From contig PAZI01000027.1 in NCBI GenBank assembly GCA_002715545.1, positions 29,221 through 34,307 of the forward strand: a DNA stretch of 5,087 nt. Reading direction: 5' to 3'. Below the pieces are notes generated by a model. That model ran no database searches. It worked only from the letters and a program-made list of their open reading frames with translations, and was not told where the DNA came from. Both the position numbers and the translations under genes were made by a program. This document shows, one piece after another, positions 972 to 5,087 of this stretch. This stretch comes from Methanobacteriota archaeon (GTDB lineage: Archaea > Thermoplasmatota > Poseidoniia > Poseidoniales > SP79). Within the stretch, counting starts at the first letter, position 1. Every line of letters begins with the position of its first letter.

Positions 972-1146
972 CTTTTACGAGGCTTTCGATTTTTATCCAT
1001 TCCGCTCTTTCTTCATCCGGCCAAAGAACATATGCTCCTGGCACCGGACCCCTGGCTTGTACCTCAATAATTAAACCAACGTTATCTGAAGCGCTTGGCA
1101 TAGTATTAGCACTATTACGAAATAATACTAGATCACCTTTCTCCAT
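949..1146 (-). CDS. Small SH3-like phage protein, 65 aa, function unknown
   Basis: The protein begins MEKGDLVLFRN, the GD-[LI]-V opening of small SH3-barrel phage proteins. It continues with VGLIIEVQ and a strand-like AYVLWPDEERAEWIKIESL, where the 'xVxWPD...W..IxSL' ending is also typical of this group. I chose the ATG at 1146-1144 because AGGAG (1155-1151) lies four bases upstream. A longer reading from a TTG at 1179 would add a charged MRKEK-like stretch and enlarge the overlap with DUF4385. With the chosen start the overlap with DUF4385 is 14 bp, and the gene overlaps the metallopeptidase-like gene by up to 23 bp. This points to one polycistronic unit. The function is unknown. Confidence 0.75.
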   Translation of the reverse strand: MEKGDLVLFRNSANTMPSASDNVGLIIEVQARGPVPGAYVLWPDEERAEWIKIESLVKVEAVVSR

Positions 1147-1561
1147 ATCGCTCCTGCTCTTGGTTTTTTCTTTTCTCAAATTCTTTTCTTAAAGAAAAAT
1201 ACTTTATATTATCTTTAATCTCTTTGTAGGCTAACTTAAAATATTTTTTAGACTTCTTTGGAATTGCATCTCTAATGGATCCAGCACGTAAATACTTTAG
1301 AGCCAGGTCTGCCCCAACGAAATCACCTTCATTTAGATAATCAAAAAACATACCTTTAATTGATTTAGAGCTTTCCTTTGAGGCAGCCGGTGTTGAAAAG
1401 CGCCAAAGTTTTAATAACTTTGTTTTATATGGTTCACATGTGTACATACCACCGCAATCATCTGTTACCTCATACTTTAGTGGATTCACGCTATAATTAA
1501 TATCATGTTTCCATCTATTAGCGTTTTCTACAATTTTAAGAAATTCCTTAGTACTTACCAT
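1133..1561 (-). CDS. DUF4385 family protein, 142 aa
   Basis: The protein carries the signature of the DUF4385 family, which is frequent in T4-like marine phages and some bacteria. A YSVNPLKYEV segment lies near residues 23-32, EPYK at 43-46, then LLKLWRFSTPAA (the conserved WRF-TP element, WRF at 53-55) and DYLNEGDFVGADLALKYLRAG (about 74-94). A lysine-rich C-terminal helical tail follows. No biochemical function is established for the family. The ATG at 1561 is preferred over the ATG at 1600. It has AAAGG six bases upstream, whereas the longer form has no ribosome site and would overlap the start of the divergent plus-strand gene. The gene is very AT-rich (about 22% GC at 1201-1260), in sharp contrast to the next two genes. 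It appears to be first in the leftward operon. Confidence 0.85.
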   Translation of the reverse strand: MVSTKEFLKIVENANRWKHDINYSVNPLKYEVTDDCGGMYTCEPYKTKLLKLWRFSTPAASKESSKSIKGMFFDYLNEGDFVGADLALKYLRAGSIRDAIPKKSKKYFKLAYKEIKDNIKYFSLRKEFEKRKNQEQERYGER

Positions 1562-1578
1562 AGCTTGCCTTTCAAAAT

Positions 1579-1908
1579 ATGATTCTAATACCCGGGACAT
1601 TAGTAAAGCTGAACTTTAATAAAAGTGTTAGTCCTGAAAGCCTTGTTCTTGCGCCCACCGAAGGTGATTTTATTAAGCTATATGAAAAAATCGATATTGA
1701 ATCATATCCAGGCTGGAATGACTTTAGGGGATATAGCAAATTATTTAAAGATGAAACTCTTCTTGTGGTCGCCAAGAAGGGACGCCCTCTTAGCTTTAGT
1801 AAAAAAGAAAAATGGGATCTTTATGACGTTTATTGTGTGTCTTACGCAAACAGAATATACGAATGCTTTTCGTATTGTATGGAAGGCATCAACGTCGATC
1901 AACCTTAA
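1579..1908 (+). CDS. SH3-like phage protein, 109 aa, function unknown
   Basis: This is one of only two plus-strand genes. The product opens with MILIPGTLVKLNF, a P-G-[TD]-LV start like the small SH3-type proteins nearby. It is longer, with an insert rich in aromatic and charged residues (residues 30-60: KLYEKIDIES..GWNDF.GYSK), then TLLVVAKKGRP, DVYCVSYANRIYECFSYCMEGI. The 'TLLVV' and 'YCVSYANRIYECFSYCMEGI' elements resemble the middle and final strands of phage proteins that read G-LxxVxx...hhVhhxGxxhxhhxxxLExI. Three cysteines cluster in the last 25 residues. No good Shine-Dalgarno sequence precedes the ATG at 1579, and a TAG just upstream (1561-1563) rules out a longer form. It diverges from DUF4385 with a 17-bp gap and converges with the 54-aa gene, overlapping it by 20 bp. 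The function is unknown. Confidence 0.7.
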   Translation: MILIPGTLVKLNFNKSVSPESLVLAPTEGDFIKLYEKIDIESYPGWNDFRGYSKLFKDETLLVVAKKGRPLSFSKKEKWDLYDVYCVSYANRIYECFSYCMEGINVDQP

Positions 1909-2096: not shown

Positions 2097-3545
2097 TTAA
2101 ATGCTTAAATTTGACAATACGCTGCGCATATTATCCAACAAATTGCCACATACGCTCTCATATTCCTTTATATTATTCCACCCCAGCTCCGGCTTCAATA
2201 ATGTCAAGTCCACTGTAACATCTAAAGGAATATTCAATCCTGTGTAGCTATGTTCAAAAGTCTTTAGTTTTGCCAATGTACCATCATAAATCTTATTTAA
2301 GATATCTCGAGTGTCTTCTAGAGAAATTCTCTCTCCCACCCCATAGGGTCCTCTATTCCACCCGGTATTTAGCATCCAACAATTTATATCTGAATTTTCT
2401 AAATTCTTCTTTAACATATCTGCATATTCTTTTGGTTTTCTTGTCATAAAAGGTAATCCAAAACAAGGTGAAAATGTTGCTGTTGGCTCATTTATCCCCT
2501 TTTCTGTTCCAGCGATTTTAGAAGTATATCCAATAATAAAAAATTTCCACGCTTCTTCCGGTGTTAGTCTTGCCACTGCTGGTAGTACACTAAATGCATC
2601 GCACGTCAATAAAATAACATTTTTGGGCTGGAGCTTTGTGCTTTTACTTGAGACAGAATTTTCAATATATGATATTGGATATGACGCCCTTGTATTTTCT
2701 GTTTTTGAATTATCAAAAAAATCTAAGGTACCATCGCCTTTTAAAACTACGTTCTCTAAAACAGCGTCCTCTTTTTGACATGCTGACCAGATCTCTGGTT
2801 CGTCCTCTTGGCTTAAGTTTATGACCTTTGCGTAACAACCATTTTCAAAATTAAAAAGACCCGAACTTGACCAACCGTGTTCGTCATCACCAATTAATCT
2901 CCTATTTGAATCTGCTGATAATGTAGTTTTACCGGTTCCAGATAATCCAAAAAACACCGTTGGGCTTTCTAGATTAGAGTCTAAATTAATAGAGCAATGC
3001 ATCGGAAATATATTTTCTTCTGGTAATATATGGTTTAAAATAGTGAATACGCTTTTCTTCATTTCTCCTGCGTATTGTGTACCAGAAATTATTATTAATC
3101 CATCCTCAAAAGAAATTAATACAAAAGGCTCTGCGGTAAATGACGGTACATAATAAAGAGAAAAATCGTATTTATCACAATCATCAATTTCTTGGAACAT
3201 GTTTAATGATGCGATTGAATGCCAAGCTAGCTCGCAATGAATCTTAACGCTAATCCCTCCAAAATCTTTATGGCCGGCATAAACAGAAGATTCGAATAAA
3301 CCCTTCTTAAAATTTTCACTAGCGAAAAAATCCCCTTTTATTTCTTCCCACACCTTTGGGTCCATACCCCTTACATATGCCCAATCTATACTATCTTTAA
3401 CGCTATCATCTTTTACTATAAACTTCGCATTGGGAGATCTTCCAGTATGCTCACCTGTCTCAACGACTAATGCCCCAGACGGAAGTGGCGTCGCGCGCTC
3501 TTTTTTTATTGCTATTTCACGTAATTCAATTCTAGATTTTTTCAT
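2097..3545 (-). CDS. pckA: ATP-dependent phosphoenolpyruvate carboxykinase, 482 aa
   Basis: This enzyme converts oxaloacetate plus ATP to phosphoenolpyruvate, CO2 and ADP in the cytoplasm, the first committed step of gluconeogenesis. Catalytic motifs appear in family order: TGRSP (R36, oxaloacetate contact), GTQYAGEMKK (Y158, K163, K164; metal and substrate), MHCS (H183), P-loop GLSGTGKT (200-207), IGDDEHGW (D220, D221; metal), ENTRASYP (R286) and GERISLEDT (R406, T412; adenine site). These correspond to E. coli R65, Y207, K212/K213, H232, K254, D268/D269, R333, R449 and T455. It is shorter than the 540-aa E. coli enzyme, lacking about 29 N-terminal residues and roughly 20 before the KK motif. 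An in-frame TGA 15 bases upstream of the ATG shows the N terminus is truly short. GGAG lies seven bases before the ATG. E405 replaces the lysine usual beside the adenine-site arginine. An active enzyme is predicted. In a phage this is an auxiliary metabolic gene. Confidence 0.97.
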   Translation of the reverse strand: MKKSRIELREIAIKKERATPLPSGALVVETGEHTGRSPNAKFIVKDDSVKDSIDWAYVRGMDPKVWEEIKGDFFASENFKKGLFESSVYAGHKDFGGISVKIHCELAWHSIASLNMFQEIDDCDKYDFSLYYVPSFTAEPFVLISFEDGLIIISGTQYAGEMKKSVFTILNHILPEENIFPMHCSINLDSNLESPTVFFGLSGTGKTTLSADSNRRLIGDDEHGWSSSGLFNFENGCYAKVINLSQEDEPEIWSACQKEDAVLENVVLKGDGTLDFFDNSKTENTRASYPISYIENSVSSKSTKLQPKNVILLTCDAFSVLPAVARLTPEEAWKFFIIGYTSKIAGTEKGINEPTATFSPCFGLPFMTRKPKEYADMLKKNLENSDINCWMLNTGWNRGPYGVGERISLEDTRDILNKIYDGTLAKLKTFEHSYTGLNIPLDVTVDLTLLKPELGWNNIKEYESVCGNLLDNMRSVLSNLSI

Positions 3546-3560
3546 TAAGGTGCTCCAATA

Positions 3561-3610
3561 TCATTAATGATTCTATATCTGGAATTATAGTTTTACATAT
3601 ACATTAATGT
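3561..3610. promoter_or_regulatory. Paired palindromes, candidate operator of pckA
   Basis: TCATTAATGA (3561-3570) and ACATTAATGT (3601-3610) are both perfect 10-bp palindromes with the same CATTAATG core. Their centres are exactly 40 bp apart, close to four helical turns. One overlaps the -35 box and spacer of the pckA promoter, and the other lies just after the predicted transcription start. This is the geometry expected for a dimeric repressor binding both sites on one DNA face. The regulator is not identified. Confidence 0.4.
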
Positions 3611-3613
3611 TAA
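3584..3613 (-). promoter_or_regulatory. Sigma70-type promoter for pckA
   Basis: On the minus strand TTAACA (3613-3608), an 18-bp spacer and TATAAT (3589-3584) give a 5/6 -35 and a perfect -10. The stop codon TAA of the upstream virion-like gene is embedded in the -35 box. The predicted start near 3577 leaves a leader of about 30 bases with a GGAG ribosome site (3556-3553). pckA could therefore be transcribed separately from the virion-like gene. Confidence 0.55.
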
Positions 3614-4053
3614 GTGGAAACAGTAAATATCTCTAAATCGCTTGCAGCTGTTGACGCTGTACCCTTAATCGACACAATGTCTTCAAGGGTTACATCACCA
3701 CCCGTAGTTACGTCACCTTGCTTATGGGTTAGCATATGGGTCTTTTTTGGACCTAGAACAACTTCGTAAGTATGACTACTTGTAAGAGTAAATGTTAATT
3801 GAATATCATTGGCGTCATCTAAGTTAGTTAGTCTAACGTATTGCATTCTTACTTTGTCAATGGCACCGCCCGCGTCGGCGGCTGCGAGAGTTAGAAGAGT
3901 TGTGGCAGTCGTAGCTACAGACATAATTCTATGACTATAGTCGGTGACATTTGGGATTGAAAGCATTGTATAAACCTGCTGTTGCTGGCCATTGATTGTG
4001 ATCGATTCCAAAATTCTACTAGTGAAAGTCGTTTTTGTAACTGTTGTTGCCAT
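3610..4053 (-). CDS. Putative virion structural protein, 147 aa
   Basis: The product is rich in Thr, Ser, Ala and Val, has no cysteine, and alternates short hydrophobic strands with polar turns, as expected of a beta-rich virion protein. It has an N-terminal TTVTKTTFTSRILESITINGQ, a hydrophobic middle (TTATTLLTLAAADAGGAID), then VRMQYVRLTNLDDANDIQLTF and YEVVLGPKKTHML. The 'hRYxRhTNLDxxNDhxL....xYxVxLGxxKxhhL' sequence resembles small structural proteins of marine myoviruses. I recognise the style, not a named gene, so a decoration, tail or fibre-associated role is inference. The start is secure: AGGAGG (4067-4062) lies eight bases before the ATG at 4053, the strongest ribosome site here and consistent with abundant synthesis. 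It diverges from the Fe-S carrier gene across 47 bp and is followed by the pckA promoter. Confidence 0.6.
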   Translation of the reverse strand: MATTVTKTTFTSRILESITINGQQQQVYTMLSIPNVTDYSHRIMSVATTATTLLTLAAADAGGAIDKVRMQYVRLTNLDDANDIQLTFTLTSSHTYEVVLGPKKTHMLTHKQGDVTTGGDVTLEDIVSIKGTASTAASDLEIFTVST

Positions 4054-4100: not shown

Positions 4101-4424
4101 ATGATTAAGTTAACAAAAAATGCTAGCAATAAAGTAAAACAAATTATGGAAAACAAAGAAAAGACACCATTGGGATTACAGGCAGGTGTTAAAGGCGGAG
4201 GTTGCTCTGGGTTTAGCTACTATTTAGATTTCGTTTACGAAAAACAAGAAAAAGATCGCGTAATAGAAAGTGAAGGAGTAACCATATACGTGGATCCCAA
4301 AAGCTACCTTTACTTAATGGGGACTGAAATTGATTATATAGACGGATTGTCTGGTAAGGGCTTCAAGTTTATTAATCCAAATGCCAAGAGAACTTGTGGA
4401 TGCGGTGAAAGCTTTAGCGTTTAA
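4101..4424 (+). CDS. A-type iron-sulfur cluster carrier (IscA/ErpA/HesB family), 107 aa
   Basis: Proteins of this family hold a 2Fe-2S or 4Fe-4S cluster and pass it to apo-enzymes in the cytoplasm. The length is typical, and the three cluster-binding cysteines are present: C35 in GGGCSGFSY, and C99 and C101 in the C-terminal CGCGESF. The intervening DPKSYLYLMGTEIDYIDGLSGKGFKFINPNAK is the conserved family core. A good AAGGAG (4089-4094) lies six bases before the ATG. The gene stands alone on the plus strand, divergent from the virion-like gene. Its 3' end overlaps that of the convergent Smr gene by 11 bp. Such carriers are known as auxiliary genes of marine myoviruses. Which client it serves cannot be told; no Fe-S enzyme is visible in the window. 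IscA, ErpA and SufA cannot be separated from sequence alone here. Confidence 0.95.
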   Translation: MIKLTKNASNKVKQIMENKEKTPLGLQAGVKGGGCSGFSYYLDFVYEKQEKDRVIESEGVTIYVDPKSYLYLMGTEIDYIDGLSGKGFKFINPNAKRTCGCGESFSV

Positions 4425-4638
4425 TATCACTTATAATCAAAGCGCCAAAATTATGGGCACTTTCAAAATGAAATTCATACTCATATTCATTAATAATTGC
4501 CAGTACAATCTCCCTCATTTGCTTAGACCTACCAGTAATAATTCTAACTGGTAGGTCGGCGAAATTTAAAAATTCCCTCACCTTATCATCTACATACGCA
4601 TGACGTACCATGTGTAAATCCAAAGTTTTAATTTTCAT
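4414..4638 (-). CDS. Small Smr-domain-like protein, 74 aa
   Basis: The protein is a minimal Smr domain. It begins MKIKTLDLHMVRHAYVDD, containing the LDxH motif (LDLH, residues 6-9), followed by a helix. VRIITGRSKQMREIVLAIINEY (about 31-52) is the strand-TGxG-loop-helix element, and it ends in NFGALIISDI, the last strand. Smr domains bind or cut nucleic acids, for example in MutS2 and stand-alone bacterial and phage proteins. Here the usual TGxG is TGRS, so the second glycine is missing and nuclease activity is uncertain. The start overlaps the stop of the vWA gene as ATGA (4638-4635), with no good ribosome site of its own, indicating coupled translation. A perfect 11-bp inverted repeat lies inside the gene at 4526-4557, over the TGRS codons. 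Confidence 0.75.
   Translation of the reverse strand: MKIKTLDLHMVRHAYVDDKVREFLNFADLPVRIITGRSKQMREIVLAIINEYEYEFHFESAHNFGALIISDIKR
4526..4557. repeat. Perfect 11-bp inverted repeat inside the Smr gene
   Basis: GACCTACCAGT (4526-4536) is the exact reverse complement of ACTGGTAGGTC (4547-4557), with a 10-base loop between. Either strand's RNA can form the hairpin. No T tract follows on either side, so it is not a standard terminator. On the sense strand it covers the codons of the DLPVRIITGRS segment. Confidence 0.6.
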
Positions 4639-5087
4639 CTACATATTTTGTTCTTATAGTCATAATGATATTTAGACACGTTATAATCATACATGCTCAC
4701 ATATGTATAGCTAGAATCAGAAAAGTTCATTGCACCTTGCTCTTCAACCGGTTGATCTCTTGGTAAGCAAGCTTCATCGATTATTGACATTAGATCATTA
4801 TACATGCTAACTGCGTTTGACGTCAAATCAAATAAAGCACCGTTCCCAGCCAGGGTTAAGCTCTCCCAAAATCTACCTTGAACCCCAAACCCGCCATCGG
4901 AAAATGCATAAACTTTTAAGTTTATTCCTGCTCGAACTGCGTCTTCAACTATTGCTTTCGTTATTGGTCGATTTGGCCCTTCCGGATCATTTAAATCTCT
5001 AAGATATGATTGCTCTACTTCATCGCTAAATACAATCACAATTCTTTCCGAAGTTGGCCTCCAATTGATATTAAAGTTTTCTTTCTC
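4635..5087 (-). CDS. von Willebrand factor A (vWA)-domain protein, C-terminal 150 aa (5' end outside the window)
   Basis: The frame is open to the right edge of the window, so the gene starts upstream of it. A GTG at 5039 is internal, because it cuts through the strand RIVIVFSDE. The visible part has WRPTSERIVIVFSDEVEQSY, a buried beta strand followed by an acidic FSDE turn. It occupies the place of the TDG-type metal-site motif in vWA/MIDAS domains. A helix (ITKAIVEDAVRAGINLKVYAF), a further strand and FDLTSNAVSMYNDLMSIIDEACLP, the closing helix of such domains, follow. The last 35 residues are Tyr- and Asp-rich (YTYVSMYDYNVSKYHYDY) and probably a tail. vWA domains bind proteins through a metal ion. 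In phages they occur in structural or assembly proteins, so a virion role is inferred. The stop overlaps the Smr start by four bases (ATGA). Confidence 0.7.
   Translation of the reverse strand, partial: EKENFNINWRPTSERIVIVFSDEVEQSYLRDLNDPEGPNRPITKAIVEDAVRAGINLKVYAFSDGGFGVQGRFWESLTLAGNGALFDLTSNAVSMYNDLMSIIDEACLPRDQPVEEQGAMNFSDSSYTYVSMYDYNVSKYHYDYKNKICR

Follow-up and report, generated by a model that had tools for sequence, protein, structure and literature searches.

What is a gene for phosphoenolpyruvate carboxykinase (PEPCK) doing in DNA that looks like that of a phage, and is its product a working enzyme that the virus could use? Most metabolic genes known from phages concern photosynthesis, nucleotides, sulfur or the pentose phosphate route. 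The gene lies within a stretch of 5,087 nucleotides, here called the window, for which a first-pass annotation made from the letters alone had proposed a complete ATP-dependent PEPCK in a phage-like context. To answer the question we take in turn the integrity of the gene, its surroundings, the residues and predicted fold of its product and its relatives, and then discuss the direction in which such an enzyme would work in an infected cell.

Gene integrity and family assignment

The PEPCK open reading frame (ORF) encodes 482 amino acids (aa) from an ATG start with no internal stop, and a GGAG resembling a Shine–Dalgarno sequence sits seven bases before the ATG. In a Pfam profile search it matches PF01293 at 536 bits (cut-off 26.5, E 9.9e-161), with residues 5–443 covering positions 9–459 of the 465 in the profile, and phmmer matches it to 20 distinct PEPCK sequences of the PDB (E 4e-110 to 1.5e-88), values which together exclude chance as the source of the identification. 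The intact ORF and its Pfam score thus uphold the proposal of a complete ATP-dependent enzyme. The GTP-dependent type (PF00821) was rejected for the window, at 12.5 bits against a cut-off of 23.8, and was found in none of 23 PEPCK records. Among six NCBIfam PEPCK models only the subfamily NF006821 exceeds its cut-off (376.1 versus 369); the pckA equivalog TIGR00224 scores 489 bits, under its cut-off of 590.05, and the protein is therefore filed as a member of the PF01293 family and not as a pckA equivalog. GC content in 500-base windows is 0.33–0.37 across the gene, similar to that of neighbouring genes. The sigma-70-like promoter match upstream (Table 1) is no evidence of function, as the window has 24 such sites compared with 16.4 (sd 4.0) in shuffled sequence.

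Table 1. Features of the window, with coordinates counted from its first base
Feature	Coordinates	Strand	Basis
DUF4385 protein downstream of PEPCK	1133..1600	-	PF14328, 81.9 bits; phrog_5325
PEPCK ORF, compact phage-type ATP-dependent form, 482 aa	2097..3545	-	PF01293, residues, predicted fold
P-loop GLSGTGKT, PEPCK residues 200-207	2925..2948	-	Alignment with Salmonella PEPCK; place computed from the ORF
Shortened mid-protein loop region, PEPCK residues 115-156	3078..3203	-	42 residues in the window
Sigma-70-like promoter match (11 of 12) just upstream of PEPCK, suggestive only	3584..3613	-	
147-aa ORF upstream of PEPCK, earlier called virion-like	3610..4053	-	No profile match
A-type Fe-S carrier, ErpA/IscA family	4101..4424	+	PF01521, 76 bits; ErpA model, 121.6 bits (cut-off 117)
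Large predicted lipoprotein, C-terminal end, MopE-type motifs	4635..5087	-	Relatives upstream of PEPCK in two phage contigs

The phage genome around the gene

The window corresponds to bases 164069–169155 (minus strand) of a virus record of 188,264 bp. This record has a gene for the T4-type major capsid protein gp23 (E 1.9e-65) and a terminase gene (E 1.7e-17), an ORF of 533 aa that lies upstream of gp23; the ORFs between the two are putative portal, protease and scaffold genes, roles read from gene order alone. The gp23 protein has 2,500 matches among 50,697 phage records, all below 60% identity; among the best of them are an uncultured phage of 484 kb (37.0%), Microcystis phage Mel-JY01 (40.0%) and several from Flavobacterium (44.6%). 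ThyX, a thymidylate synthase, lies on one flank of PEPCK together with a series of genes that have a common leader; on the opposite flank are genes for a DNA methyltransferase, a T4-type RNA ligase, one protein resembling a tail fibre and one resembling an endolysin. As the record has both hallmarks and PEPCK is flanked on either side by phage-type genes, the phage-like context suggested by the first-pass annotation is supported and the surroundings are not a bacterial chromosome devoid of phage hallmark genes. What is found is a metabolic gene within a genome having phage hallmarks, as expected of a phage auxiliary metabolic gene. The description of the nearest upstream neighbour as virion-like was not confirmed, since this ORF is without a match in Pfam, PHROG or NCBIfam and has no relative among the compared loci.

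The record encodes several enzymes of nucleotide metabolism, namely ThyX, thymidine kinase, dCMP deaminase and an IMP dehydrogenase (IMPDH)-type protein. As a separate observation, its load of Fe-S assembly and chaperone genes is striking, comprising IscU, ErpA/IscA, a YfhL-type ferredoxin, DnaK, Hsp20 and GroEL-type genes (L003 8784-9170 and 12434-14757; L185 3688-5259; L002 7538-7864; and 4101-4424 of the window), and genes for a sigma-70-type factor and a peptide deformylase are also present (L185 5610-6374 and 7139-7741).

The stretch L002, bases 145001–164500 of the same record, contains about 12 neighbouring genes (approximately 941–11569) which, judged by eye, have a common short N-terminal leader before unrelated bodies, of the form M-K/N-LLREYIRELL-x-E or MK-x-x-K-x-QLR-x-x-IRE. 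A script pattern written from these L002 genes themselves finds eight such starts in L002; viral loci totalling about 0.79 Mb give two, and cellular loci totalling 1.20 Mb give none. The leader resembles the T4 capsid-targeting leader with its L/I-x-E cleavage site, and because of this resemblance the genes may encode proteins packed in the phage head. The lipoprotein-like protein that ends in the window has 752 aa within L002 (17245–19500), and its MopE-type metal-binding motifs presumably recall secreted proteins like those of Myxococcota, which may hint at the host.

Catalytic residues and predicted structure

The earlier mapping of 11 catalytic residues (R36, Y158, K163, K164, H183, K206, D220, D221, R286, R406 and T412) proved sound: Salmonella PEPCK, whose numbers we take to be one lower than those of the E. 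coli enzyme, has the same residue at each aligned position. The titles of PDB entries for mutants (Arg65, Y207, K212, Lys213, Lys254, Asp269) agree with the E. coli numbering assumed here. The first ten do not vary in any of the 66 viral, 116 metagenomic or 82 cellular rows, and T412 is replaced by serine in three of the viral and three of the metagenomic rows. By the roles that established PEPCK chemistry gives them, Arg36 holds oxaloacetate, Lys164, His183 and Asp221 the metal, and the P-loop residues Lys206 and Thr207 ATP. Such conservation implies that the protein would carry out the normal PEPCK reaction, giving PEP and CO2.

The AlphaFold2 model of the protein (mean pLDDT 90.1, pTM 0.88) has the PEPCK fold. 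Foldseek aligns this model with chain B of the Thermus enzyme 1j3b at a TM score of 0.93 and with chain A of 9a4u at 0.95, and the listed chains of solved ATP-PEPCKs match at 0.87–0.95 by query length.

Relatives in viral, cellular and metagenomic collections

In IMG/VR, 84 of 104 pattern-matched stretches encode PEPCK relatives, 80 of which were kept as 79 loci, and the best DNA relative there is about 51% identical to the window's enzyme in protein. None of the viral PEPCK ORFs extracted has an internal stop, and seven are cut by contig ends. The non-redundant protein set supplies relatives that are 60–77% identical and 476–483 aa long (the 26 best matches, among the best 120 of 7999 scored candidates). 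At least 595 stretches of GTDB contigs match, and none of the best 80 exceeds 46% identity over its best segment. Matches were also present in 201 of 296 genomes from the phylum of locus L150 (titled Bacteroidota); among those listed none exceeds 49% identity and the shortest open frame has 518 codons.

A tblastn search of the phage collection, which may leave out near relatives of the window's record, found PEPCK in eight records. One of these, LR756504 (uncultured, 636 kb), is a real phage match. One Salmonella contig, where pckA lies next to an envZ-type gene, looks like host DNA, as does the record titled 'Staphylococcus phage UPMK_1', in which a hypothetical protein and a dipeptidyl aminopeptidase lie beside PEPCK; the rest are one Salmonella contig by title and four records of 1.5–3.2 kb. 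Since seven of the eight matches are, or may be, host DNA, no isolate phage in this collection convincingly carries PEPCK. In MG543995 and AGRM01000003, both from this collection, host chromosome apparently surrounds pckA.

Hallmark genes were searched for in 49 of 81 PEPCK records, and further families in 23 of those 49. Terminase (Terminase_6N, E<=0.001) was matched in 20 of the 49 and gp23 in 16, the window's own record included in both counts. Many of the records lacking a match to Terminase_6N (29) or gp23 (33) are short; three of 267–348 kb (G025, G041 and G047) match neither.

Neighbouring and partner genes

Two gene families near the window's PEPCK recur near PEPCK in independent contigs. 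A cysteine-synthase-like gene, which ends about 5.3 kb before PEPCK in the window's record, begins after it in four other loci, at about 0.8 kb in L016 and about 2.3 kb in L013, L021 and L024, and genes related to the large lipoprotein-like one at the window edge are found upstream of PEPCK in L018 (41%) and L014 (27%). Counting against synteny, none of the compared loci has a relative of PEPCK's nearest neighbours in the window, the ErpA/IscA, 147-aa and DUF4385 genes.

An IMPDH/GMP reductase-type gene occurs in 12 of the 23 records; its distance from PEPCK is about 2 kb in G002 and G020 but about 21 kb in the window's record. This co-occurrence, seen among PEPCK-carrying records alone, may reflect a functional link or a lineage trait; it fits nucleotide supply and does not fix the direction of flux. 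A PEP-consuming or pentose-phosphate partner gene was rejected, neither PF00793 (DAHP/KDO8P-synthase type) nor PF00923 (transaldolase) being found in any of the 23 records, so that no wider PEP or pentose-phosphate module is seen. A general link to IscU was likewise rejected, NifU_N being present in only four of the 23.

A compact clade of PEPCKs

The window's enzyme differs from cellular ones in a mid-protein loop (residues 115–156). The equivalent region has 41–48 residues in 24 of 66 viral rows and in all 116 metagenomic rows, a count which is not independent because these rows were picked by likeness to the window, and 53–56 residues in all 82 cellular rows; the other 42 viral rows have 53–64. 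The N- and C-termini also tend to be shorter in the compact clade than in cellular enzymes.

Sequences below 400 aa (loci) or 440 aa (proteins) and 11 duplicates were dropped before trees were built. In a FastTree phylogeny of 265 distinct sequences the 80 rows from GTDB contigs form one clade and the window lies elsewhere, with viral and metagenomic rows only. In two smaller trees, with rows chosen by hand, the cell-free clade of the window comprises 32 of 53 rows (support 99/90) and 26 of 60 rows (93/97), the latter with a core of 23 (12 viral, 10 metagenomic and the window) at 100/98. The 60-row tree adds 12 enzymes from the phylum search, one being a second copy of L150, and omits P0005, L033, L052, L064 and L158. 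A long-loop viral group (L045 and kin) falls inside the cell-free clade in the 53-row tree and outside it in the 60-row tree, where the branches linking that clade to the nearest cellular rows are weak (48/77 and 42/66). As the long-loop group moved out with sampling and the joining branches are weak, only the short-loop core is counted as a clade. The window's PEPCK is thus a member of a compact viral and metagenomic clade with no cellular member among the compared rows. Other long-loop viral rows, LR756504 and kin and L031, branch elsewhere, and since in addition the starred branches force at least three changes of cell label, more than one acquisition of PEPCK by viruses is suggested.

A second viral group, L039–L080, has a long loop, a very short C-terminus and an unstable position in the tree. 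In this group 39 loci have one methyltransferase family in common, just upstream of PEPCK in L048, and 39 have in common a family whose L079 member bears an endolysin domain.

A strictly joint descent of PEPCK and the capsid gene finds no support in distances over 14 records, which do not correlate (r 0.10, a value reached in 434 of 2000 permutations). Some small groupings are nonetheless common to the two trees, namely G002 with G020 (joined by G014), G022 with G043, and G015 with G016 and G019.

Viral relatives of the enzyme that are close to one another show strong purifying selection. Of 243 viral pairs at 70–98.5% protein identity, 139 have dS below 1.5, and in these, none of which includes the window, dN/dS has a median of 0.095 and a maximum of 0.161.

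Possible role in infected cells

We consider it probable that the gene specifies a functional phage-encoded ATP-PEPCK, retained as an auxiliary metabolic gene by a lineage of large T4-like phages, which would drain the tricarboxylic acid (TCA) cycle towards gluconeogenesis. The enzyme would be expressed during infection, bind oxaloacetate and the ATP–metal complex, and decarboxylate and phosphorylate oxaloacetate to yield PEP, CO2 and ADP. The TCA cycle would in this way be drained into gluconeogenesis and pentose phosphates, and the latter would feed the synthesis of nucleotides, and of surface sugars, in a host living on organic or amino acids; this, we infer, is the benefit to the phage. 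The PEPCK reaction is reversible and runs towards oxaloacetate in some CO2-rich fermenting bacteria. Because of this reversibility sequence cannot give the direction of flux, and the gluconeogenic direction is judged the likelier of the two on the grounds that bacterial ATP-PEPCKs usually serve in this way. Flux in infected cells from PEP, CO2 and ADP to oxaloacetate and ATP, which would refill the TCA cycle and provide ATP and aspartate, from which purines draw nitrogen and pyrimidines are made, seems unlikely to us, yet it has points in its favour. The solved relatives of the window's enzyme include those of Actinobacillus and Anaerobiospirillum, and the IMPDH-type and other nucleotide genes of the phages require aspartate as well as ribose; the sequence itself does not tell this direction from the other.

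Explanations that deny the phage a working enzyme fare less well. The shorter loop and termini of the compact clade would suit a catalytically dead or moonlighting relative, for example a nucleotide-binding protein or a decoy for a host regulator, but T412 is the only one of the 11 listed residues that varies in the 66 viral rows, being serine in three, and the purifying selection among viral relatives is strong, and we regard such a loss of function as quite improbable. It is more improbable still, to the point of being barely credible, that a bacterial pckA was joined to phage sequence by contamination or a chimeric assembly. Contamination is real in public data, as the seven doubtful matches of the phage collection (three long records and four of 1.5–3.2 kb) illustrate. 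Against it, cellular loci are no more than 46% identical (best 80), and those of L150's phylum no more than 49% (matches listed), compared with up to 77% for metagenomic relatives; the clade of the window contains no cell row; phage genes lie on both sides; and the two neighbouring families are common to independent contigs in which PEPCK also lies beside phage genes, which makes a chimeric joint at the edge of the gene, a possibility raised by the first-pass annotation, unlikely. Host DNA and chimerism were rejected on this evidence of clade, flanks and neighbouring families.

A functional phage PEPCK would let the virus decide the fate of host carbon, because the enzyme governs the step that links the TCA cycle with gluconeogenesis, and our results suggest that PEPCK-carrying T4-like and related uncultured phages reroute host carbon flow during infection. 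In a bolder form of this idea, which we put forward tentatively and rate as rather unlikely, the compact subfamily is an old possession of T4-like phages, reshaped into its compact form and free of host control, which together with the phage IMP dehydrogenase captures the PEP–oxaloacetate node for nucleotides. If so, several uncultured phage lineages would have arrived by convergence at this node as a principal site for capturing host carbon. The presence of a compact subfamily in many uncultured large phages makes the idea of carbon control testable by ordinary enzymology, and the compact phage-type enzyme provides a marker with which to detect such phages in metagenomic data.

Comparison with known systems

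PEPCK as a viral gene is already in print. In the accessible text of a study of hadal trench viromes, pckA is named among viral auxiliary metabolic genes and given a gluconeogenic reading (PMC12448302); there the gene is named only, and that text is silent on clade, gene context, phage lineage and any compact form. PEPCK of giant viruses is named in a review, as far as its available sections go (PMC9270025). The modelled enzymes of Catovirus CTV1 and Klosneuvirus KNV1 are virus-borne like that of the window, but these are viruses of eukaryotes and not phages; the Catovirus protein (480 residues, 33% identity) is the best fold match in BFVD. In the sections seen of a paper on Caldarchaeales, PEPCK is mentioned as a host gene (PMC10547907), and the main text of two ocean virus papers (PMC4053976, PMC11360552) contains none of the terms sought. 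Within the accessible text of the open-licence PMC literature, we found no description of a phage PEPCK clade.

A phage can also act on this metabolic step by the opposite logic. According to the excerpts available, the lambda repressor CI represses host pckA (PMC6359870), and a phage repressor that shuts off host pckA is mentioned elsewhere too (PMC12724203); in the case of CI the host gene is shut off and the phage brings no enzyme, whereas in the window the enzyme itself is carried.

The cellular ATP-PEPCKs (pckA; PF01293; TIGR00224; PDB 1j3b, 1aq2, 1ygg) have the same fold, P-loop and metal and substrate residues as the window's enzyme. They are longer, at 518–576 aa in six rows and 529–554 aa in 12 against 482 aa, the window's form having a shorter loop and termini and falling below the pckA equivalog cut-off. 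A further parallel is the phage LR756504, which has gp23 and terminase matches and an intact PEPCK of 524 aa, 39% identical to that of the window. With its separate branch in the tree and a loop of 55 residues, unlike the compact form described here, the LR756504 enzyme is likely to represent a separate acquisition.
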